Position numbers and translations under genes: made by a program. A model generated the notes under the pieces. The model did no database searches. It saw nothing but the letters and a program-made list of their open reading frames with translations, and was not told where the DNA came from. Shown in pieces: positions 4,690 to 37,386 of a stretch of 64,000 nt of DNA (its first letter is position 1; every line of letters begins with the position of its first letter). Source of the DNA: Candidatus Stoquefichus sp. SB1 (GTDB lineage: Bacteria > Bacillota_I > Bacilli_A > Erysipelotrichales > Coprobacillaceae). The stretch is from positions 837,158 to 901,157 of the forward strand of contig NZ_LN852695.1 of the NCBI RefSeq assembly GCF_001244545.1, in the 5' to 3' direction.

Positions 4690-6190
<1,501 letters not shown>

Positions 6191-6195
6191 ATAAA

Positions 6196-7986
6196 ATGAC
6201 AAATAAAGAACTGGCAAAACAAATTGTTTCTCTTTTAGGTGGCCGTGATAATATAACAACTGCTTTACATTGTGTGACAAGATTAAGATTTAATTTAAAA
6301 GATAATAGTTTAGCAAATATGAAATCTATTGAAAATCTGGAAGGTGTTATCGGAACACAAATTAAAAATGGCCAATATCAAATTATTATAGGACCTATGG
6401 TTGCTGATGTTTTTATTGAAGTAGAAGCTCTCTTAGGTGATATGAGCAATAACGAAATAAAATCAACTCAAAAATTTGATGTCAATAAAATTCTTGATGT
6501 TATTACTGGTATCTTTTCTCCTATTTTACCTGCTTTAGTGGCAGGTGGAATGCTAAAAGGTATTATAGCAATGATTGATGGTTTTGGTTGGATTGCTACT
6601 GAGAGTGGAACTTTTGTTATTTTGAATTTAATTTCAGATATTCCCTTTTATTTCTTACCGTTTTTGTTAGCTATTTCTTCTTCGCGTAAGTTCAAAGTAA
6701 ATGAATATCTAGGTATTTGTGTTGCAGGAGCTTTGATGTATCCTACTTTTGTTGCAGCAGTGGATGCTACAAGCAGTCCGTTTACTTTCTTAGGTTTTGT
6801 GATTCCCGTCTTTAAGTATGCTGATTCAGTATTTCCAGTTATTTTAGGTGTTGGATTGCTTGCTGTGGTTTATCGTTTTATTGATAAATTTATTCCAAAT
6901 GTTCTTAAAATGGTTATTGTTCCAACGATGTCATTACTTGTGACAATACCTTTGATATATTTGATTTTAGCACCAATAGGCGCTTATGGTGGTATTTATC
7001 TCGCTGATGGGATTGTGTGGATGTTTAATACTTTTGGTGTATTTGCTGGATTTTTGCTTGGCTTCTTTATGCCGCTTATTGTATTGTGTGGTATGCACCA
7101 ATCAACATCACCAATTCAAATTACAAATATAACAACACTTGGTTATGATTACTTATTACCTATTTCATTTTGTCATAATATGGCTGAATCTGGAGCATCT
7201 TTAGGTGCAGCTTTACATATGAAGGATAGTAAAATGAGAGCAGCTGCTCTTACAACAAGCTTCTCAGCATTTCTTGGAATTTCAGAACCAGCATTATTCA
7301 CAGTCAATGTTGTGAACAAAACACCATTGATTGCTGCTATGATAGCAAATGGAATCGGTGGTGCATTGACAACACTTTTAGGAGCAAAATGTTTTGCTTT
7401 CGTTATGCCTGGAATTACATCATTACCAGTTTATGCAAATCCTGATGGAACAATTGGAAATTTATTATTAATGTGTGTTTGTATTATCAGTACTTTTCTT
7501 ATTGCAGCAGTATTAAGTTATCTTTTAGGGATGCGTAAAGTTAAGACATCTGATCTTGTTATAGAAATGCCTGTAAAAGGAGAAATGATTTCCTTAAATA
7601 AGGTAAATGATGAAATGTTCGCTAAAGAAAAGATGGGAAAAGGCTATGCCATTATTCCAAATGATCAATATATTTATGCACCATGTGATGGAACAGTTGT
7701 TGTTCTTGCACAAACAAAGCATGCTATTGGACTACAGGCAAAACAAGGTGAAGAATTGTTAATTCATATTGGTATTGATACAGTAGAATTAAATGGTCAA
7801 TATTTTGAAAGTTATGTTAAACAAGGAGATAAAGTGAAAAAAGGCGATCGATTAATGAAAGTTGATTTTCAAAATATTCAAAAAGCTGGCTATGATATAA
7901 CAATTCCGGTGATTTGTACAAATAGTCAAAACTATCAACAAATTACTGTTGATAAAGAACACAAAACTATGACTATAAAAAAATAA
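6196..7986 (+). CDS. Beta-glucoside-type PTS permease, EIIBCA fusion
   Basis: A 596-residue three-domain PTS transporter. The N-terminal EIIB has phospho-Cys26 in ALHCVTRLRF. A multi-span EIIC domain (about 100-460) contains the GMHQS and ISEPALF motifs. The C-terminal EIIA (about 480-596) has the phospho-acceptor His524 in LIHIGIDTV. This domain order is that of the Bgl/Scr family that imports and phosphorylates beta-glucosides, sucrose or trehalose. The coupled 6-phospho-beta-glucosidase points to beta-glucosides. It has its own EIIA and EIIB, unlike the other PTS locus in this window. Confidence 0.93.
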   Translation: MTNKELAKQIVSLLGGRDNITTALHCVTRLRFNLKDNSLANMKSIENLEGVIGTQIKNGQYQIIIGPMVADVFIEVEALLGDMSNNEIKSTQKFDVNKILDVITGIFSPILPALVAGGMLKGIIAMIDGFGWIATESGTFVILNLISDIPFYFLPFLLAISSSRKFKVNEYLGICVAGALMYPTFVAAVDATSSPFTFLGFVIPVFKYADSVFPVILGVGLLAVVYRFIDKFIPNVLKMVIVPTMSLLVTIPLIYLILAPIGAYGGIYLADGIVWMFNTFGVFAGFLLGFFMPLIVLCGMHQSTSPIQITNITTLGYDYLLPISFCHNMAESGASLGAALHMKDSKMRAAALTTSFSAFLGISEPALFTVNVVNKTPLIAAMIANGIGGALTTLLGAKCFAFVMPGITSLPVYANPDGTIGNLLLMCVCIISTFLIAAVLSYLLGMRKVKTSDLVIEMPVKGEMISLNKVNDEMFAKEKMGKGYAIIPNDQYIYAPCDGTVVVLAQTKHAIGLQAKQGEELLIHIGIDTVELNGQYFESYVKQGDKVKKGDRLMKVDFQNIQKAGYDITIPVICTNSQNYQQITVDKEHKTMTIKK

Positions 7987-8031
7987 ATTATTTAAAAACC
8001 TATTTGTAAGTCAAATAGGTTTTTAAATAAT
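7987..8031. terminator. Bidirectional terminator, 20-bp perfect stem
   Basis: Positions 7987-8006 and 8012-8031 are perfect inverted complements around a five-base loop. Each arm contains a T-run in one orientation. It separates the PTS operon from the convergent HAD gene and overlaps that gene's last codons. Confidence 0.9.
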
Positions 8032-8811
8032 TTTGAAATGTTTTAAAGCATTTTCAATACCATTATCTCTAATATCAGTTGTAATAAATGTCACAACATC
8101 AAACAAAAGTGGATTGCTATTTCCCATTGCAACAGATTCTTTCGTAAATTCTAACATAGGTAAATCATTGGTAGAATCACCAATACTGATTGCATTTTCA
8201 ACAGGTATATTTAAGTAGTCTGCAATCATTTGAATACCTGTGGCTTTGGAATATCCAAGTGGGATGATTTCTAAAAAATCGACATCACGTTGGATAAAAT
8301 CAAAGTCTTTTTGTAAAGCTTCTTTAAAAGTGTCAACATCAGAATGTTCATCATACCATGAAGCGTATTTATCAAAAGGAACAATATCGTGCTGATTATA
8401 TTTAAATACAGGGAATTTTTGTTCGATATATCTTTGTTCAACTCCACCTACAAAAGGGTGAAAAGTTTTGTGAGGAAAATAAACACCATTTCTTCCCTCT
8501 AAAACAGTATCAATATGACATTCATAAGATTTTTCAATCACAAGTTTTTGTTTTTCTGCTGGAATCTCTACATGAAAAATAGGTTTTCCCTGATACTCAA
8601 TATAAGTTCCACAACCACAAATATATCCATCAAAAGGAATATCAGTAATAACTTTATCAATTGTTGAAATTGGACGGCCAGTATTAATAAAGCATAAATG
8701 TCCATTTGCTTGTGCTTTAGCGATAGCTTGTTGAGTTGACGTAGGAACACAGAAAGTTTCTTCATCTAATAATGTTCCGTCTATATCAAAAAATATAAGT
8801 TTTGTTTCCAT
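8023..8811 (-). CDS. Cof-type HAD-IIB family sugar-phosphate phosphatase
   Basis: A 262-residue HAD phosphatase with motif I FFDIDGTLLDEE at the N-terminus, motif II INTGRP and motif III/IV GDSTNDLPML near residue 210. These place it in the Cof/YidA subfamily with a C2 cap. Relatives dephosphorylate sugar phosphates, phosphoramidates or PLP. It sits convergent to a beta-glucoside PTS operon, so a role in relieving sugar-phosphate stress is possible but only inferred. It has its own transcription unit. Confidence 0.9.
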   Translation of the reverse strand: METKLIFFDIDGTLLDEETFCVPTSTQQAIAKAQANGHLCFINTGRPISTIDKVITDIPFDGYICGCGTYIEYQGKPIFHVEIPAEKQKLVIEKSYECHIDTVLEGRNGVYFPHKTFHPFVGGVEQRYIEQKFPVFKYNQHDIVPFDKYASWYDEHSDVDTFKEALQKDFDFIQRDVDFLEIIPLGYSKATGIQMIADYLNIPVENAISIGDSTNDLPMLEFTKESVAMGNSNPLLFDVVTFITTDIRDNGIENALKHFKII

Positions 8812-8923
8812 AGTTTTTCCTCACTTCTTTTTTTCTATCATACATAGAAAAATGGAAATGGTCAAGATGGAGATGGCTATGATATAAAAAGTATGATAAA
8901 ATATATGCAAAGGAGGAGGTATA

Positions 8924-9559
8924 ATGAGTATTCAAAGACCTATTCAGCCTGCTTTAATCAAACCAGTTCATTTAAATACGCCTTATATTGAAACAAAACG
9001 TTTGATATTAAGAAAAATGACTGAAGAAGATTTACAAGCTGTTTTTATGATTTATAAAGATCAAGCTGTCAATGAATTTTTACCATGGTTTCCTCTTCAC
9101 ACGCTTGAAGAAGCCAAAATATTATTAGAAAATAAATATTTAAAAGCCTATCAATTACCAAGAGGATATATGTATGCGATTTGTTTGAAAAGTGATAATA
9201 TTCCTATTGGTTATGTTCATATTGAAATGGATGAGAGCTATGATTTAGGCTATGGTTTAAGAAAAGAGTTTTGGCATCAGGGAATAACGACTGAAGCAGT
9301 TCAGGCAGTTTTAAAACAGGCACAAGAAGATGGACTGCCTTATGTGACTGCTACTCATGATATCAATAATATAAATAGTGGTAAAGTCATGAAGAAGTTA
9401 CAGATGAACTATCAATATTCATATGAAGAATTGTGGCAACCCAAAAATAAAATGGTTACTTTTCGAATGTATCAATTGAACCTTGATGGTAATCAAAAAA
9501 GAGTTTATAAAAAATATTGGGATATGTATCCTAATCATTATATTGAAGAGAATATTTAA
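8924..9559 (+). CDS. GNAT-family N-acetyltransferase, RimJ/RimL-like
   Basis: A 211-residue protein. The N-terminal strand TPYIETKRLILRKMTEEDL and the segment GYGLRKEFWHQGITTEAVQAVL (acetyl-CoA pyrophosphate loop region), followed by INNINSGKVMKKL, are typical of the RimJ/RimL group of GNAT enzymes. Members acetylate protein N-termini, aminoglycosides or small amines. The substrate cannot be predicted. A GGAGGAGG ribosome site precedes the start, and the gene stands alone with a terminator behind it. Confidence 0.88.
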   Translation: MSIQRPIQPALIKPVHLNTPYIETKRLILRKMTEEDLQAVFMIYKDQAVNEFLPWFPLHTLEEAKILLENKYLKAYQLPRGYMYAICLKSDNIPIGYVHIEMDESYDLGYGLRKEFWHQGITTEAVQAVLKQAQEDGLPYVTATHDINNINSGKVMKKLQMNYQYSYEELWQPKNKMVTFRMYQLNLDGNQKRVYKKYWDMYPNHYIEENI

Positions 9560-9590
9560 AAAGATGAACCGGTGGGTTCATCTTTTTAAA
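9555..9590. terminator. Bidirectional terminator
   Basis: A perfect 16-bp stem (9555-9570 with 9575-9590) with loop GGTG lies between the convergent acetyltransferase and peptidase genes. T-runs occur in both orientations. Confidence 0.9.
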
Positions 9591-11259
9591 AATCTTTTTT
9601 GATTTGTTTTGCAATTTCTTGAATAATTTGACTTGTAAATGGATTGCTTAGATTGGCATTTTTTAAAGCATCTAAGTAATCAACATTAATTGTATTTTGA
9701 GTCATATTTCGATAAGTAAGGATTGCTTCATCACGATCTTGTTGACTGAGCATCCATATTTCTAAGGCAGAAACAGCACTTGTTGCATAACTGATATAAT
9801 AGAATGGTGATTCAAAATGATGATGAATATCAACCCATTCATATGTCATTTCATATCCATAGTATTTTTTACTAATTTGCGCATGCAAAGCATTCATTTC
9901 ATCTATTGACATATCAGGATTTTCATAAACTTTTTGTTGGAATTCATCTTCTGCTGCACCTTGAATAATGCTGCTTAACATTTCAATGATTGAATTAACT
10001 TCAAAAAGTTGAGCATCATCTTTAAAAATATCTTGATAATATTTGAACATTAAGAGTTCTAAGCCTTGAGAATGAATTTCAGCAATATCTAAATTGTTAG
10101 AATCATTCCAGATTGTCTTTCCCATAAGATAAAAGTTATAATAATGACCAAATTCATGGAAGACAGTGTCTGGCGTTTTATAATCATTGGCATTAATAAA
10201 CATGAATGGACTTGAGCCAAGCAAAGTTGTAAAACCAGCATGTTGAGTATTTTTATCATTGCTGAAATGATAAAGCTGATATTTTTGCATATAGGTAAGT
10301 GCTTCTTGCATGGCTTGTGGAAACTCTTTTTTCAGTGCATCTTCAAGATAAGATATTCCACTTTCAAGTGAATATGGAGTTTTATCTAATTGACTTATTT
10401 TATTTTGATATTTCATTGATAGTGAAAGATATAAAGGTGTGACTGTTTCAAGAACGTTCTTTTCAAATTTTTGTGCATCTTCTTTAGTAAAATCACGTCC
10501 TAATACATCATAGGCATAATCAGCATAACTGTCATAACCAAGTTTCTTTGCTATTTGGATTCTGATTTTCACAAGCTGACTATAAATCGTAGCTAACTCT
10601 TTATTTTTATTTTGATAAATACGATAATAGGCATCAATATCATCTTGCTTACTAAAGTCTAAATCATCCATAGTCACTGTTTTACCCTTGATTTCAGTTG
10701 TATATTCTTTTGATAATAATGTGTTGTATTGATTGACAAGTGCTGTTTCCTGCTCTGAAAGTTCTTCAATTTCAGGTGAATTTAATTTTGCATTTTTTTG
10801 ATAACGTTCAATGAAGTCTTGACCCATTTTATTTGTGAAAGCATCTTTATATTGGGATTCAAGAATTGTTTTGGTTAAAGAATTCATTTGATTGTCAAGT
10901 TTTGTATAACTATTACTTAAAAATTGACTTTCATTATCATAATATTGACTTGTAACATCTATACTGTAAAAGACGTTTGCTAGTGATGACATATAATCAA
11001 TATTATAGAGATCATCAAGAATATCCTGATAAGCATTTAAGACATCAGCATCTTTGTTACTGTTTTGAGAAAGCTTCATAAGGTCTTCAATCTTTTGATT
11101 GGTTGCGTCAATATCAGGACGCTGATATTTCATGTCTTTAAAGGCAATATTGTCATGAGGAGGAATTGTTTCTTCATGAACCTTGGTTGTTGAAGTACAG
11201 CCACTTAATAAAAGTGCTAAAGTTACAAATAAGATAGCTATTGATTTAAATTTTTTCAT
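9586..11259 (-). CDS. Lipoprotein M3-family metallopeptidase (oligoendopeptidase F-like)
   Basis: A 557-residue protein with a lipoprotein signal (hydrophobic stretch, then lipobox LLSGC at about residues 17-21). The long helical body carries the zinc motif HEFGH at residues 368-372 and a downstream glutamate-rich segment (DIAEIHSQGLE) that supplies the third zinc ligand. M3 peptidases such as PepF cleave short peptides and are usually cytosolic. Here the signal places the enzyme on the outer face of the membrane, where it could trim peptides for uptake. It is monocistronic. Confidence 0.9.
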   Translation of the reverse strand: MKKFKSIAILFVTLALLLSGCTSTTKVHEETIPPHDNIAFKDMKYQRPDIDATNQKIEDLMKLSQNSNKDADVLNAYQDILDDLYNIDYMSSLANVFYSIDVTSQYYDNESQFLSNSYTKLDNQMNSLTKTILESQYKDAFTNKMGQDFIERYQKNAKLNSPEIEELSEQETALVNQYNTLLSKEYTTEIKGKTVTMDDLDFSKQDDIDAYYRIYQNKNKELATIYSQLVKIRIQIAKKLGYDSYADYAYDVLGRDFTKEDAQKFEKNVLETVTPLYLSLSMKYQNKISQLDKTPYSLESGISYLEDALKKEFPQAMQEALTYMQKYQLYHFSNDKNTQHAGFTTLLGSSPFMFINANDYKTPDTVFHEFGHYYNFYLMGKTIWNDSNNLDIAEIHSQGLELLMFKYYQDIFKDDAQLFEVNSIIEMLSSIIQGAAEDEFQQKVYENPDMSIDEMNALHAQISKKYYGYEMTYEWVDIHHHFESPFYYISYATSAVSALEIWMLSQQDRDEAILTYRNMTQNTINVDYLDALKNANLSNPFTSQIIQEIAKQIKKDF

Positions 11260-32263: not shown

Positions 32264-32782
32264 ATGAAAACAACAGGTATGGTAAGAAGAATTGATGAAT
32301 TGGGAAGAATCGTTATTCCTAAAGAAATGAGAAAACAATTAATGATGAAGGAAGGAGAAAGTATTTCTTTTTCATTAGAAGATGATAAAATCATTTTAAC
32401 TAAATTTTCAATGTTAAATAAAATGGGACCAACAGTTCAAGTCCTTTTAGAAGGATTATATACAAAATATCATAATACATTTATGATATGTGATCGTCAA
32501 AATGTGATTGCGAGTTCATCTGATGGTTTAGCAAGATATCAAAGAAAAATGCTCCCAAAAGATTTAACTTTATTAATTGAACAACAAGAAAAACAAATAG
32601 AAATAACAATGGATTTCTTTGATGAATCTCAAAAAATAACAATTTATCCATTAATCAATGGTCAAGAATGTCAAGGTGCATTATTAATGATTACAAAACA
32701 AACACCTTATTATATGATGGATGAAACATTATTAGAGTTCGTTAATGAAGTCATTGAACAGGAGATAGAAGCATGCGTTTAG
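32264..32782 (+). CDS. spoVT: Stage V sporulation protein T (AbrB-like regulator)
   Basis: A 172-residue protein. The N-terminal swapped-hairpin AbrB domain (TTGMVRRIDELGRIVIPKEMRKQL) is followed by a GAF-like domain, the layout and length of SpoVT. In Bacillus it modulates sigma-G-dependent genes in the forespore. It is followed, with a 10-base overlap, by the S4-domain gene yabO/rqcP, as in the conserved spoVT region of spore formers. It supports the view that this organism sporulates. Confidence 0.92.
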   Translation: MKTTGMVRRIDELGRIVIPKEMRKQLMMKEGESISFSLEDDKIILTKFSMLNKMGPTVQVLLEGLYTKYHNTFMICDRQNVIASSSDGLARYQRKMLPKDLTLLIEQQEKQIEITMDFFDESQKITIYPLINGQECQGALLMITKQTPYYMMDETLLEFVNEVIEQEIEACV

Positions 32783-33045
32783 ATAAATTTTTAAAAGTAT
32801 CAAGAATTATTAAAAGAAGAACATTATCAAAAGAAATTAGTGAATCATCACGAGTTAAGGTCAATGGTAAGATTGCTAAACCTTCAACCCAATTAAAGAT
32901 TGGTGATGAAATAGAAATAGAATTTGGTCGTAGTATTTTGAGTGTAAGAGTAAAAGAACTTAAAGACCATGTTTTAAAAGATGATAGTTCAATGTTATAT
33001 GAAATTATAGATGAAAAGAAGAAAGAAGAGGTTTATACTGATTAA
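32773..33045 (+). CDS. rqcP: RqcP/YabO S4-domain RNA-binding protein
   Basis: A 90-residue S4 (Hsp15-like) protein opening MRLDKFLKVSRIIKRRTLSKEI, then VKVNGKIAKPSTQLKIGDEIEIEFG. RqcP works with RqcH on stalled 50S subunits to add alanine tails in ribosome quality control. Overlap with spoVT and the later yabP-yabQ-divIC order identify it as YabO. The stop codon sits inside a terminator stem, so the unit ends here instead of running into yabP as in Bacillus. Confidence 0.92.
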   Translation: MRLDKFLKVSRIIKRRTLSKEISESSRVKVNGKIAKPSTQLKIGDEIEIEFGRSILSVRVKELKDHVLKDDSSMLYEIIDEKKKEEVYTD

Positions 33046-33057
33046 ATCTCTTTTTTT
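33027..33057 (+). terminator. Terminator after rqcP
   Basis: AGAGGTTTA (33027-33035) pairs with TAAATCTCT (33043-33051) with one G-U pair, followed by seven T. It overlaps the rqcP stop codon. Confidence 0.75.
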
Positions 33058-33134
33058 GTCCGTTGAATATCCTATTTGTTAAAGCACTCCCAAAATTTAA
33101 TTAAAATGTTTTATAATTGAGTTAGTACAATAAT

Positions 33135-33243
33135 GTACACATTAGAAAATATAAAGAATTATGCACAAAAAAAGGAAATACCTAAATATTTTAGATAGAT
33201 CCTTCTATTAATGCTAAATGAAAGTCCGTTAATTAATGTGTAC
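33135..33243. repeat. 10-bp perfect inverted repeat flanking 89 bp upstream of the surface protein gene
   Basis: GTACACATTA at 33135-33144 and TAATGTGTAC at 33234-33243 are exact inverted complements. They enclose 89 bp in the leader of the BspA-like gene. They could form the closing stem of a structured leader or, less likely, mark an invertible segment. A TATAAT box at 33112-33117, without a clear -35, lies upstream. Nothing else recognisable was seen in this 224-bp gap. Confidence 0.5.
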
Positions 33244-33269
33244 CTTTACGCACAAAAGGAGGGAAACAA

Positions 33270-36200
33270 ATGAAATATCATTTAAAAGGGAAGTATAGAT
33301 TAAAAGTGAATGCATTTTTAGTTAAGCAGTTTAAGATATGGTGTAGTGTATTACTAGTCATTGCTGGTTCATCATATATGCTTAAGAATGCTTATGCAGA
33401 AGAAACTACAACTACACATTGGGACATATCAGATACATCGACTCCTAACACAGTTTCAGCTGATTATGCTGATGGAACACTTACTATTAGTGGTGAAGGA
33501 ACAATGGGAAAACTGTATAAAGTTATTGACAATAATAGGGAAAAAGAATCTTTATGGAATGATTATCGCTTTGACATAACAAATGTCGTTATTAAAGAGA
33601 ATGTAATTGCAACTGATTTAAGTTATATGTTTTATAAATTGGCAAAAGTAACAACAATCAGTGGTTTAGATAAAATAGATACAACTAATGTAACTGATAT
33701 GTCAAATATGTTTTATTACTGTCTAAAGTTAAATAGTATTGATTTATCAAAATTTAAAACTGTAAATGTTACTAATATGGAGAATATGTTTTATGCATGC
33801 GAAGGTTTAATTGAACTGGATGTATCCAAGTTTAATACAAGTCGCGTCACTAATATGAGTGATATGTTTTATGATTGTCAGTCTTTAACTGAATTAGATG
33901 TCTCTCAGTTTGATACAAGCCAAGTGACTAATATGAATGATATGTTTTCTTGTTGCTATGGTTTAACTGAATTGGATGTATCCAAATTGAACACAAGCCA
34001 AGTGACTAATATGGAAGGAATGTTTTCTTATTGTAATAAATTAAAGCAATTAGATATATCTATGTTAAAAACAAGTCAAGTCACTAATATGCAAAGTATG
34101 TTTAGAAATTGCAATGATTTAGTTAATTTGAATTTTAGTGGTATTGATACAAGCAAAGTCTCTACAATGTTTGCGATGTTTAGTGGGTGTAAGAGTTTGA
34201 CTGGATTGGATGTATCTAGTCTCAACACAGGGCAAGTCACTAATATGAGTAGAATGTTTGAAGATTGTCAGTCTTTAACCAGTTTAGATTTATCATGTTT
34301 CGATACAAGCAACGTAAAGACTATGGATTCTATGTTTGCTGATTGTCAGTCTTTAACCAGTTTAGATTTATCACGTTTCAATACAAGCAATGTCACTGTA
34401 ATGTCATATATGTTTATGGATTGTCAAGCGTTAACTACATTGGACGTATCTTATTTCGATACAAGCAAAGTATACGGTTTCAATGATATGTTTAATGGTT
34501 GTCTATCTTTAGTTAAAATAAAAGGATTAGCTATTTCTATAGATGATTGTATGATTGATAACGTTTTTACTGCAACACCAAATTTATCTGAAATTCAAGT
34601 CAAAACAAAAGTGTCATTAGATATTCCTTATATTGATGATAATCATAGATGGTATGATGATCAAGGTAATCAATTAATCAGTGATGGAGATAATGCAGTT
34701 ATTCCTGTATCTGAGACTTATGTGACTTATACATTAAAACCTGGTATTTCTTATGACATTATTTATAACTTATATGGTGGAGTTTTACCAGATGATGCTC
34801 AAGATCAATTTGAAATCTTAGGTGAGTATGAATTACCTATGCCTACAAAGAATGGTTATATCTTTGATGGCTGGTATGATAGTGAAGATTTTAATCATGC
34901 TATAACAAAGATTGAAAAGAACACTACAAAAGATATGACTGTTTATGCTAAGTGGATAGGAAAGACAGCTATAAAAGCAGATGACTTTAAAGTAGAATTA
35001 TCAAGTGAGACTTATACGGGAAATGAAATCACTTATACAATAACATCTTCACTTGATGGTGTTGGTACATTTCAAGTAAAAAAACTTGAAAAAGATGGTA
35101 TTGAAGTGAGCAAAGTTAAAGAAGCAGGTACATATAAAATGACATTTGATGTGGCTGAGGCTGATCAGTATAAGTCAGCGACAGTAACAAAGGAATTTAA
35201 AATATCACAGGCAACAAATAGCTGGAAAGATGAACTTCATATAGAAAACTGGACTTATGGTGAAAAGGCAAATGTACCAACTTCACAAGTTAGTTTTGGA
35301 GAAGTCAAATATACTTACAGTTCAAGCAAGAATGGTAAATTCACTGAAAATAAGCCAACAGATGCAGGAACATGGTATGTCAAGGCACAAGTCAATGAAA
35401 CAAGTAACTATACAGGATTGGAAGAAGTGAAGGAATTCAATATCAATAAAGCAATTCCAACAGTTGAATTGCCAACCAATCTAAGAGGTATAGAAGATCA
35501 GTTGCTTTCAACAGTTACTCTATCAAAAGGTTGGACATGGGCTGATGGAGATATTGTGCTTAGTGTTCAAAATGGTGGCTATAAAGCAAGACTTATCATT
35601 GATGATACAAATTATGACTATACTGGTGTAGAAGGATACAATAAAGAGAATCATTATGTGGAAAGAACGTTGAATGTTTCTATTGCAAGTAAAGAAGCAG
35701 GAAGTATACAAAAGGAAGTTAAGAAAGGGAATAATGCACCAGATATAAAGATACCTATCACTGAAAGTCAACTTGCCAATATTGTTTTAACGGATGAAGA
35801 AAAGAAGGCAGTAGAAAAAGGCAATGATATAAAGATTGTTCTGACAGTTGATGATGCCTCAGGACAAATTAGTATCAAAGATAAGACAGTTGTAGAATCA
35901 GTGTTAGGAAAAATGAAGATAGGACAGTATCTGGATGTCAGTCTGTTAAAGATCATTGATCATGAAGAAAGCAGGATAAGTCAAACAAGAGGAACTATTA
36001 AAATCACAATAGAGATACCAGAAAGCTTAAGGAAGGCAAACAGAGAATTTGTGATGATACGCGTCCATGATGGAGTGGCAACAATTCTAAAGGATTTAGA
36101 TACTGATGCGAATACAATAACGATTGAGACAGATCGATTCTCTACATATGCTATTGCATATCAGGATAAACAAAGCAATATAGCAGAAACTGAAGACAGA

Positions 36201-36281
36201 ACAGTCATAGGAGGATATATAATTCTTGTAGGACTTACAGGAATGTTATTGTTCATCAACAGAAAGCAAAAAAGGATATAA
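33270..36281 (+). CDS. BspA-like (DUF285) leucine-rich repeat surface protein
   Basis: A 1003-residue secreted protein. The N-terminal signal peptide (hydrophobic core about 26-40, predicted cut after AYA) is followed by eleven 26-residue BspA/DUF285 repeats (138-423; pattern TSxVTNMxxMFxxCxxL). A Listeria-Bacteroides repeat (YNLYGG...GYIFDGWY...VYAKW, about 495-565) and several Ig/MBG-like domains come next. The C-terminus has a hydrophobic helix and RKQKR tail, but no LPxTG motif. Such proteins are host- or matrix-binding adhesins. It has GGAGGG before the start and its own terminator, and lies inside a sporulation gene cluster. Confidence 0.9.
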   Translation: MKYHLKGKYRLKVNAFLVKQFKIWCSVLLVIAGSSYMLKNAYAEETTTTHWDISDTSTPNTVSADYADGTLTISGEGTMGKLYKVIDNNREKESLWNDYRFDITNVVIKENVIATDLSYMFYKLAKVTTISGLDKIDTTNVTDMSNMFYYCLKLNSIDLSKFKTVNVTNMENMFYACEGLIELDVSKFNTSRVTNMSDMFYDCQSLTELDVSQFDTSQVTNMNDMFSCCYGLTELDVSKLNTSQVTNMEGMFSYCNKLKQLDISMLKTSQVTNMQSMFRNCNDLVNLNFSGIDTSKVSTMFAMFSGCKSLTGLDVSSLNTGQVTNMSRMFEDCQSLTSLDLSCFDTSNVKTMDSMFADCQSLTSLDLSRFNTSNVTVMSYMFMDCQALTTLDVSYFDTSKVYGFNDMFNGCLSLVKIKGLAISIDDCMIDNVFTATPNLSEIQVKTKVSLDIPYIDDNHRWYDDQGNQLISDGDNAVIPVSETYVTYTLKPGISYDIIYNLYGGVLPDDAQDQFEILGEYELPMPTKNGYIFDGWYDSEDFNHAITKIEKNTTKDMTVYAKWIGKTAIKADDFKVELSSETYTGNEITYTITSSLDGVGTFQVKKLEKDGIEVSKVKEAGTYKMTFDVAEADQYKSATVTKEFKISQATNSWKDELHIENWTYGEKANVPTSQVSFGEVKYTYSSSKNGKFTENKPTDAGTWYVKAQVNETSNYTGLEEVKEFNINKAIPTVELPTNLRGIEDQLLSTVTLSKGWTWADGDIVLSVQNGGYKARLIIDDTNYDYTGVEGYNKENHYVERTLNVSIASKEAGSIQKEVKKGNNAPDIKIPITESQLANIVLTDEEKKAVEKGNDIKIVLTVDDASGQISIKDKTVVESVLGKMKIGQYLDVSLLKIIDHEESRISQTRGTIKITIEIPESLRKANREFVMIRVHDGVATILKDLDTDANTITIETDRFSTYAIAYQDKQSNIAETEDRTVIGGYIILVGLTGMLLFINRKQKRI
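33681..34538 (+). repeat. Eleven tandem 78-bp coding repeats (BspA leucine-rich repeats)
   Basis: In-frame 78-bp units encode 26-residue repeats. The units at 34263 and 34341 share a nearly identical stretch of about 40 bp (beginning GATTGTCAGTCTTTAACC), and the same opening recurs near 33875. This indicates recent duplication or gene conversion. Copy number could vary between strains. Confidence 0.85.
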
Positions 36282-36290
36282 ATATCAATG

Positions 36291-36324
36291 AAGACAATGG
36301 TCAAATGACTGTTGTCTTTTCTTA
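36291..36324 (+). terminator. Terminator after the BspA-like gene
   Basis: A 13-bp stem (36291-36303 with 36306-36318, two G-U pairs) is followed by T-rich sequence. Confidence 0.75.
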
Positions 36325-36376
36325 TGAGGTTCTAATCAATTATTGAGGTGCATATGTTGATGTAGGAGGTAAGATT

Positions 36377-36670
36377 ATGGATAATAATTTACATTTTGAA
36401 CAGACACCTTATCATCATATTTGTTTAAAAGATCGTAAGAGTCTTGAGTTGACTGGTGTTAAAAAGATAGAGAGTTTTGATTCATATGAATTTTTAATTG
36501 AAACATCATTAGGGTATTTAAATATTACAGGTAGTGATTTGACTTTGGTGAGGCTTGATCAAGATCAAAATGAAGTGAGTATTAAGGGGAATATTGATAG
36601 TATGAGTTATGTTTCTGAAAAGAAAAAAACACATCAGAAAGATAAAATGTTTAATAAATTATTGAAATAA
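36377..36670 (+). CDS. yabP: Sporulation protein YabP
   Basis: A 97-residue YabP/YqfC-family protein (LKDRKSLELTGVKKIESFDSYEFLIETSLGYLNITG...VSIKGNIDSMSYV). In Bacillus it is made in the mother cell under sigma-E and is needed for spore cortex formation. AGGAGGT precedes the start. It overlaps yabQ by one base. Downstream yabQ and divIC and upstream rqcP and spoVT confirm the identity. Confidence 0.92.
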   Translation: MDNNLHFEQTPYHHICLKDRKSLELTGVKKIESFDSYEFLIETSLGYLNITGSDLTLVRLDQDQNEVSIKGNIDSMSYVSEKKKTHQKDKMFNKLLK

Positions 36671-37092
36671 TGAATTTATTAGTACAGTTTCAATGTTTAT
36701 TTTATTCTTTTGGGTATGGTTTTGTAATGAGTGGGGTCTATCATATTATCAATCGATTTTTATGGAAAGTGCCTTTATTCATTCGTTATCTATTTCAGAT
36801 AGTTATTGGATGTTTATTTGGTGTTCTTTATTTTTATGGTTTGGTTATTTTAAATGATGGGATATTAAGGCTTTATTTCTTTATTATGGTTTTTTTAGGA
36901 TATTTATTTTATCAGAAATATTATGCCTACTATCTTTTGTATCATTTAGAGATAATTGTTCGTATTTTGAAAAGAATAATCGCACCTTTTATCTTCTTTT
37001 TTCGTTATATTAATGGTATAATACAAAAAAGAGTAAAGAAGGTGAAGTTAAAATGGCAAAAACGAAAGAACCAAGATATAAAAAATTCTTAG
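36670..37092 (+). CDS. yabQ: Spore cortex biosynthesis protein YabQ
   Basis: A 140-residue membrane protein with four hydrophobic helices (about 5-25, 35-60, 62-85, 100-118) and a very basic tail (KRVKKVKLKWQKRK). This matches YabQ, a mother-cell membrane protein needed for cortex assembly. It overlaps yabP by one base and divIC by 40 bases in another frame, a close coupling also seen in relatives. Confidence 0.9.
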   Translation: MNLLVQFQCLFYSFGYGFVMSGVYHIINRFLWKVPLFIRYLFQIVIGCLFGVLYFYGLVILNDGILRLYFFIMVFLGYLFYQKYYAYYLLYHLEIIVRILKRIIAPFIFFFRYINGIIQKRVKKVKLKWQKRKNQDIKNS

Positions 37093-37346
37093 GTCTTATA
37101 TATATTGGCATTTCCGCTGTTTTAATTTATACATTAACAATGAATGCTTTTCGTGTTATGAATCAAAGAGAACAATTAACACGTTTACAAACACAAAAGG
37201 CAGAATTAGAAAAAGAGAAAAAGGCTCTATCTGAAAAGGTTGATTTACTCACAGATGATGATTATGCAGCAAGATATGCTAGAGATGAGTATATTTTTCC
37301 TAAAGATGGAGAAGAAGTTGTGAGATTGCCAGATACAAAGAAATAA
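37053..37346 (+). CDS. divIC: Septum formation initiator DivIC/FtsB-like
   Basis: A 97-residue bitopic protein. A basic N-terminus is followed by one transmembrane helix (about 13-33) and a coiled coil (NQREQLTRLQTQKAELEKEKKALSEK). The motif DDDYAARYARDEYIFPKDGE is typical of DivIC/FtsB. It joins FtsL and DivIB/FtsQ to promote septal wall synthesis. Position after yabQ is the Bacillus order. The start lies 40 bases inside yabQ. The stop codon overlaps a terminator. Confidence 0.93.
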   Translation: MAKTKEPRYKKFLGLIYIGISAVLIYTLTMNAFRVMNQREQLTRLQTQKAELEKEKKALSEKVDLLTDDDYAARYARDEYIFPKDGEEVVRLPDTKK

Positions 37347-37364
37347 GCTTGCGCTTATTTTTTT
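37341..37364 (+). terminator. Terminator after divIC
   Basis: AAATAAGC (37341-37348) pairs with GCTTATTT (37353-37360), followed by T. It includes the divIC stop codon. Confidence 0.8.
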
Positions 37365-37386
37365 GTGCTATATAAGGAGGAAGGTT

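Follow-up and report, generated by a model that had tools for sequence, protein, structure and literature searches.

Sequence comparison indicates that the surface-protein gene between yabO and yabP in the window (the whole 64,000-nt stretch of Candidatus Stoquefichus sp. SB1 DNA that was analysed) belongs to a cassette inserted in this lineage, and that this gene is probably phase variable through an invertible terminator of the CwpV type, as one locus of a dispersed set of four. We assign to this reading as a whole a probability of a little over three in four. The invertible-looking segment in the leader of the gene, together with its three further copies in the genome, was unexpected and lies outside the earlier interpretation of this DNA. 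The features considered are collected in Table 1.

Table 1. Features at the yabO-yabP junction of the window (positions are those of the window)
Feature	Position	Strand	Details
spoVT (AbrB-type regulator; SpoVT_C, AbrB/MazE), left flank	32264..32782	+	PF15714; TIGR02851 under its cut-off
yabO-like S4-domain protein, left flank	32773..33045	+	PF01479
Terminator hairpin with T7 across the yabO 3′ end	33021..33057	+	-13.9 kcal/mol, z -4.9
Insert missing from relatives, 3.3 kb	33059..36350	+	left edge +/-1-2 bases, right edge a few bases
TATAAT-like box of a putative constant promoter, 5′ of the segment and not part of it	33112..33117	+	-35 weak (by eye)
Candidate invertible segment, 109 bp	33135..33243	.	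perfect 10-bp inverted repeats GTACACATTA / TAATGTGTAC
Predicted terminator within the segment, read only when flipped	33167..33206	-	hairpin and T7
Surface-protein gene, 1003 aa	33270..36281	+	PF03382, TIGR02167, PF09479
Terminator hairpin 3′ of the surface-protein gene	36290..36319	+	-15.6 kcal/mol, z -5.4
yabP sigma-E-type site	36330..36358	+	-10 CATATGTT (36351-36358) retained; -35 half is insert DNA, TTCTAAT, 4/7
yabP, right flank	36377..36670	+	TIGR02892 over cut-off
yabQ	36670..37092	+	TIGR02893 over cut-off
Extended -10 ahead of divIC, within yabQ	37014..37022	+	TGGTATAAT, pattern TGNTATA[AC]T
divIC	37053..37346	+	PF04977

All the genes that the earlier note had placed in this region, i.e. 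spoVT, yabO, the adhesin gene, yabP, yabQ and divIC, were found at the positions that it gave, and both terminators that it had claimed (at 33027 and 36291) were borne out, with folds more stable than those of dinucleotide shuffles; neither hairpin was listed by a simple terminator scanner. 3′ of divIC, ahead of the following gene (37340-37370), a further terminator-like hairpin with T7 was noticed by eye.

The 1003-aa product of the inserted gene carries DUF285/PARCEL repeats, with matches over the cut-offs (PF03382, 1.2e-65; TIGR02167, 1.4e-96), and a single Flg_new repeat (PF09479). By eye, it has an N-terminal hydrophobic segment and a C-terminal hydrophobic segment with a basic tail; an LPxTG-like sortase signal was not found by eye at this C-terminus, which has AETEDRT where paralogues A and C, described below, have VETGD/VKTGD. 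The label BspA-like that had been given to this protein was loose: the DUF285/PARCEL models matched it, and LRR_5, which we take to be the BspA-type Pfam model, gave no match at E ≤ 0.001.

The junction was compared among relatives. A first search of 59 relatives located yabP in 28 (29 of 60 genomes when the one under study is counted), and a second search, of 42 relatives belonging to the same family, located it in 30 (31 of 43). Both yabO and yabP lay on one stretch in 23 of the 30 family relatives carrying yabP; yabO was not reached in the other seven (the G002 contig begins at yabP, and the upstream sequence covered was 1.5 kb in G062-G065 and about 10 kb in G004 and G035). Gap lengths were extrapolated from tblastn matches to the full gene ends. 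The yabO-yabP gap was ≤83 bp in 13 of the 23 relatives, in agreement with the statement that spoVT-yabO and yabP-yabQ-divIC normally lie close together, and >200 bp in the other 10; the same-genus genome G001 is an empty site, with 79 bp between the yabO and yabP matches. No tblastn match to the window adhesin (E ≤ 0.001) was found beside yabP in the 30 family relatives, the sequence covered being 1.5 kb upstream in G062-G065 and from yabP onwards in G002. Because of the short gaps in 13 of 23 relatives and the absence of the gene there from all the relatives examined, the 3.3-kb insert is, on sequence comparison, a lineage-specific insertion. The proposal of an accessory gene inserted at a tolerated point is thus supported, since at this place the gene is carried by none of the 30 relatives rather than by all of them. 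Judged by the empty sites, the insert has its left edge immediately 3′ of the yabO terminator (TTTTTTTG/TCCGTTG, 33058/33059), where the close homology to paralogue B also starts, and its right edge at about 36350/36351, ahead of CATATG. As to the target-site footprints that the earlier note had suggested looking for, no target-site duplication or transposon ends were seen by eye at the insert.

That the adhesin gene is instead an ancient member of the cluster, lost by the relatives, we consider scarcely credible, and the empty sites led us to reject it. It was absent from this place in every relative examined, the sigma-E-type site of yabP is broken by the insert, and the top-scoring homologues of the adhesin are within its own genome; nothing was found in favour of this alternative, and the ten gaps longer than 200 bp hold other content.

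The sigma-E-type pair that the insert interrupts is found in empty gaps, as GCATATT-14-CATAGGAT in G019 and GCATATT-14-CATATAGT in G001. Using a consensus taken from general knowledge and single-base shuffles, we observed that the score of the yabP site was reached by ≤5% of shuffles in 14 of the 27 relatives scored and in 8 of the 12 empty ones; the window score was reached by 14% of shuffles, and the site is weak in G029, G031 and G035, in which 17 to 52% of shuffles reach the score. In a published account, yabP and yabQ are assigned to sigma-E, and a sigma-E promoter is reported ahead of yabPQ in Epulopiscium (PMC3416734). The extended -10 before divIC is present in 31 of 33 relatives, three of which are related at the order level, and in 2.3% of single-base shuffles. 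The claim that the insertion forces yabP-yabQ-divIC to use a separate promoter is not supported, because both the yabP sigma-E-type pair and the divIC extended -10 also occur in relatives without the insert. As judged from the sequences, the insertion altered the -35 half of the yabP site and created no separate promoters, so that the adhesin gene appears to reside within a sporulation cluster whose promoters it has not taken over.

The 109-bp segment in the leader ends 26 bp ahead of the adhesin ATG, and two such 10-mers were found in none of 100 shuffles of the window. Its hairpin has a folding energy of -18.1 kcal/mol (z -5.3) when flipped and of -8.5 kcal/mol (z -1.7), with no T run, as assembled.

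A search of the same genome for the repeats with 70-100 bp between them gave four elements, all of 109 bp, at 16.2, 408.7, 414.7 and 870.3 kb of contig C5, and the backward control pattern gave none. No further copies were found in this genome at the 109-bp spacing with 3 mismatches allowed, and the switch element was found in 0 of 42 other family genomes. In a within-genome DNA comparison the window leader matched those of three further genes of its contig (A, B and C). Each of the four copies precedes an LRR/PARCEL surface-protein gene, the proteins having 1003 (window), 616 (A), about 1920 (B) and 676 (C) residues; those of the window, A and C match DUF285/TIGR02167, and that of B matches LRR_4 and MBG_3. 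The start codon lies 26-30 bp past the repeats in all four copies, and in all of them a TATAAT-like box lies outside the repeats (TATAAT in the window, A and B; TATACT in C). A hairpin ending in T7 is formed in one orientation only in every copy (-14.0 to -18.7 kcal/mol), the opposite orientation giving a weaker hairpin (-8.5 to -11.4 kcal/mol) with no T run. Considering the orientation of hairpin and T7, we predict that the window, A and C copies are ON and that B is OFF in the assembly. Copy B and the window are collinear in the outer flank; the reversal in B is confined to what lies between the repeats, ends exactly at them, and shows 94% identity.

Some results count against an invertible terminator. 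The two orientations were seen between paralogues and not within one locus, in one assembly, hence the reversal of B may be old and fixed. In the ON direction, too, the hairpins of A, B and C are more stable than those of shuffles (z -2.9 to -3.9), and C shows little difference between its two directions (-14.0 kcal/mol, z -3.2, versus -10.3 kcal/mol, z -2.9), so that the case for a terminator depends to a large extent on the T run. The -35 of the putative promoter is poor.

Two alternatives concern the segment. One is an invertible promoter, borne on the segment, which flipping would turn so as to face the gene or to face the other way. Invertons are usually of the promoter type, and the G034 element at the same junction, described below, has TTGAAA-17-TATAAT between inverted repeats; however, no convincing promoter was seen by eye in the 109-bp segment in either direction, and in all four copies the TATAAT-like box is outside it, so we consider this alternative unlikely. 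The other is a static insertion, in which the hairpin is a plain attenuator or spacer, the repeats are relics, and the gene is constitutive or regulated by a protein. It would fit with two orientations not having been seen within one locus of the single assembly, but it is hard to reconcile with 10-bp repeats that are perfect in all four copies, even in C, the interior of which has diverged, and with the exact reversal of B at these repeats; we regard it as quite improbable.

The exact repeat pattern was also searched outside the family set, with 3 matches in genome_contigs and 1 in viral_contigs, in scans that possibly do not contain the records of this genome; on ORF reading, the pattern matches at L104-L106 are not ahead of LRR-type genes. 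Leader homology in relatives was limited to short weak matches in G001, G006 and G016; that of G006 adjoins an integrase-like ORF, and such repeats were not found there. No similar switch was found ahead of the large surface ORFs of G001, G019 and G022, in 4 stretches (one partly masked) with an 11-bp repeat cut-off.

The invertible terminator that we favour would work as follows. A cassette made of promoter, invertible 109-bp segment, surface-protein gene and terminator would have entered the yabO-yabP gap at its terminator/promoter boundary. Transcription would begin at the constant promoter outside the inverted repeats; in the ON state, as assembled, the leader would have no terminator and the surface-protein gene would be read. 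A site-specific recombinase would flip the segment at the GTACACATTA repeats, and in the OFF state the hairpin followed by T7 would stand between promoter and start codon. The recombinase would act in trans, and it is perhaps one of two Mpi-like serine recombinases. The insert with its empty sites, the repeats, the four copies and the exact reversal of one of them are seen in the sequences themselves, and the orientation-dependent terminator is predicted from the folds; we infer a working promoter, actual termination, ongoing flipping and a trans-acting recombinase as its agent.

The yabO-yabP gap is a place where insertion recurs. Gaps >200 bp, found there in 10 of 23 relatives, were observed in 0 of 30 between yabP and yabQ, 0 of 30 between yabQ and divIC, 0 of 28 between divIC and the next gene and 0 of 10 between spoVT and yabO. 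The ten long gaps span four genera and differ in content. In g7 there is a short ORF in four genomes (88 aa in G007, with similar DNA in the other three); in g11, a 312-aa PD-(D/E)XK-type ORF in G029 and a 109-aa ORF, by its look a part of it, in G023. In g4 (G027, G031 and G021; L081, L082 and L084) the gap is of 2.4-9.7 kb, with an aminopeptidase and a GrpB ORF in G031 (family-tested), look-alikes by eye in G021 and G027 and, in G027, also large secreted-looking proteins. Insertions at this junction are thus found in at least five lineages including the window, these counts being of related genomes and not of independent events. The boundary between transcription units does not alone explain them, because the boundary between divIC and the next gene, which is also terminator-like, has no gap >200 bp in 28 of 28 cases. 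In G034 the gap holds a 5.3-kb element (L077, about 4711-10000) with, by eye, long terminal inverted repeats and an 18-bp flanking direct repeat. It contains a 156-bp segment between perfect 18-bp inverted repeats, with TTGAAA-17-TATAAT inside (by eye), a 202-aa serine recombinase and a 1065-aa protein with Flg_new and Ig-like domains. By sequence, therefore, G034 has at the same junction a different phase-variable-looking surface gene, with a promoter rather than a terminator switch. The gap offers a place for studying recurrent insertion.

As candidates for the enzyme we considered the 19 recombinase matches of the genome under study (16 PF00589 and 3 PF00239). The full repeat motif was within 1.5 kb of none of the 19, a further point against the switch, with partial motifs near four, and a link between switch and recombinase by proximity was rejected on this basis. 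Two serine recombinases of about 200 aa match the NCBIfam Mpi-family model far under its cut-off (48.0 and 55.4 bits versus 272), and they are 50-53% identical to the G034 enzyme. GTACAC pairs in inverted order occur beside 2 of 30 serine-recombinase loci, those of G034 and G033, and beside 0 of 48 control loci; the 30 loci are 30 of 34 matches, two of them from the genome under study. As a link to an enzyme, the likeness of the GTACAC repeats is suggestive only, because a shared 6-mer between such repeats is, by a rough estimate, a few-percent event. In a grouping of 28 proteins from the 30 loci, the enzyme at C5:632.9 kb of the genome under study falls nearer those of G034 and G033 (support 0.935). 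Both of its serine recombinases have close sisters in the same-genus G001, a genome without the switch, which argues against a link between the C5:632.9 kb enzyme and the switch.

Two other loci were noted. In G033, a 131-bp segment with 15-bp inverted repeats containing GTGTAC adjoins a serine recombinase (L137, 1324-1454) and is likely an inverton. At C5, about 469 kb (L116, 1111-2625), a tyrosine recombinase is directly followed by a LoaP/UpxY-like antiterminator gene, under the model cut-offs; this is a possible phase-variable polysaccharide locus.

The surface-gene cassettes seem to have exchanged DNA. The C-terminal third of the adhesin gene has 91% DNA identity to the end of gene B, and its leader is about 95% identical to that of gene A. 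The 3′-terminal bases of yabO and their terminator occur a second time between B and A (C5, about 414.6 kb; L097, 10562-10600), fused to the leader, at a distance of about 455 kb from yabO itself. Since this stretch belongs to yabO, we infer that DNA moved from yabO to the 414-kb cluster; a single crossover of a cassette-carrying circle would give that order, gene conversion with end joining being the alternative. Cassette C (676-aa DUF285 gene; L098, 6098-8128) lies at a second conserved site, between pstS and pstC of the phosphate-uptake operon (families confirmed). Of 36 relatives with a pstC match, 29 were examined; in these the pstS-pstC gap was ≤388 bp and no match to the 676-aa gene was found between the two genes. 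It is possible, though on balance doubtful, that the four genes form a surface regulon with one type of flippable terminator under one trans-acting enzyme, plausibly the Mpi-like one at C5:632.9 kb, and that the cassettes recombine between loci, as the yabO 3′ end stranded between surface-protein genes would indicate, and settle, with little harm, at terminator/promoter boundaries of conserved clusters (yabO/yabP and pstS/pstC).

Mpi switches are promoter switches. To our knowledge, cwpV of Clostridioides difficile is the main known case of phase variation through an intrinsic terminator that can be flipped. The cwpV report describes a single switch (Cdi1) of RecV, a tyrosine-type recombinase, with 195 bp between imperfect 21-bp repeats, with an upstream promoter, a segment having neither promoter nor coding part, and an intrinsic terminator proposed in the OFF transcript only (Emerson 2009, PMC2784873). 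Both systems have an inverted-repeat segment between a constant upstream promoter (putative here) and a large surface-protein gene, and a recombinase gene away from the switch. Unlike cwpV, the segment here has an outer length of 109 bp, 10-bp repeats, the shortness of which counts against our reading, and four copies at dispersed places that have the repeats, the segment and the promoter region in common; this comparison concerns the layout. In the flagellar switch of C. difficile, RecV inverts DNA upstream of an operon and, by the title of the report, Rho mediates phase variation (PMC7446863), whereas the stop predicted here is an intrinsic terminator.

As in Mpi-type global inversion in Bacteroides (PMC5903667), a single repeat type is found at several dispersed surface loci, which by analogy suggests one trans-acting enzyme. 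PARCEL/DUF285 proteins have 25-residue tandem repeats (TIGR02167) and are described as membrane-targeted, patchy and shuffled within genomes (Roske 2010, PMC2996958). The window adhesin has such tandem 25-residue repeats (TIGR02167, PF03382); the abstract of that report contains no inversion switch. A report of the switch described here was not found, by title and abstract start, among the papers listed from the open-access collection searched. In a gut-community survey, the median number of invertons per genome is 0 in Bacillus-like Firmicutes, and terminators are left to later work (PMC11892184). The segment resembles the invertons of that survey in being short and near surface genes, and differs from them in that four of one kind occur in a genome. 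If the host is Bacilli-like, the switch set would lie in a group with few reported invertons in the same survey. If the reading proposed here is true, four copies with shared repeats would mean that a switch of the cwpV type is able to spread in cassette form, perhaps with several surface proteins under a single enzyme.
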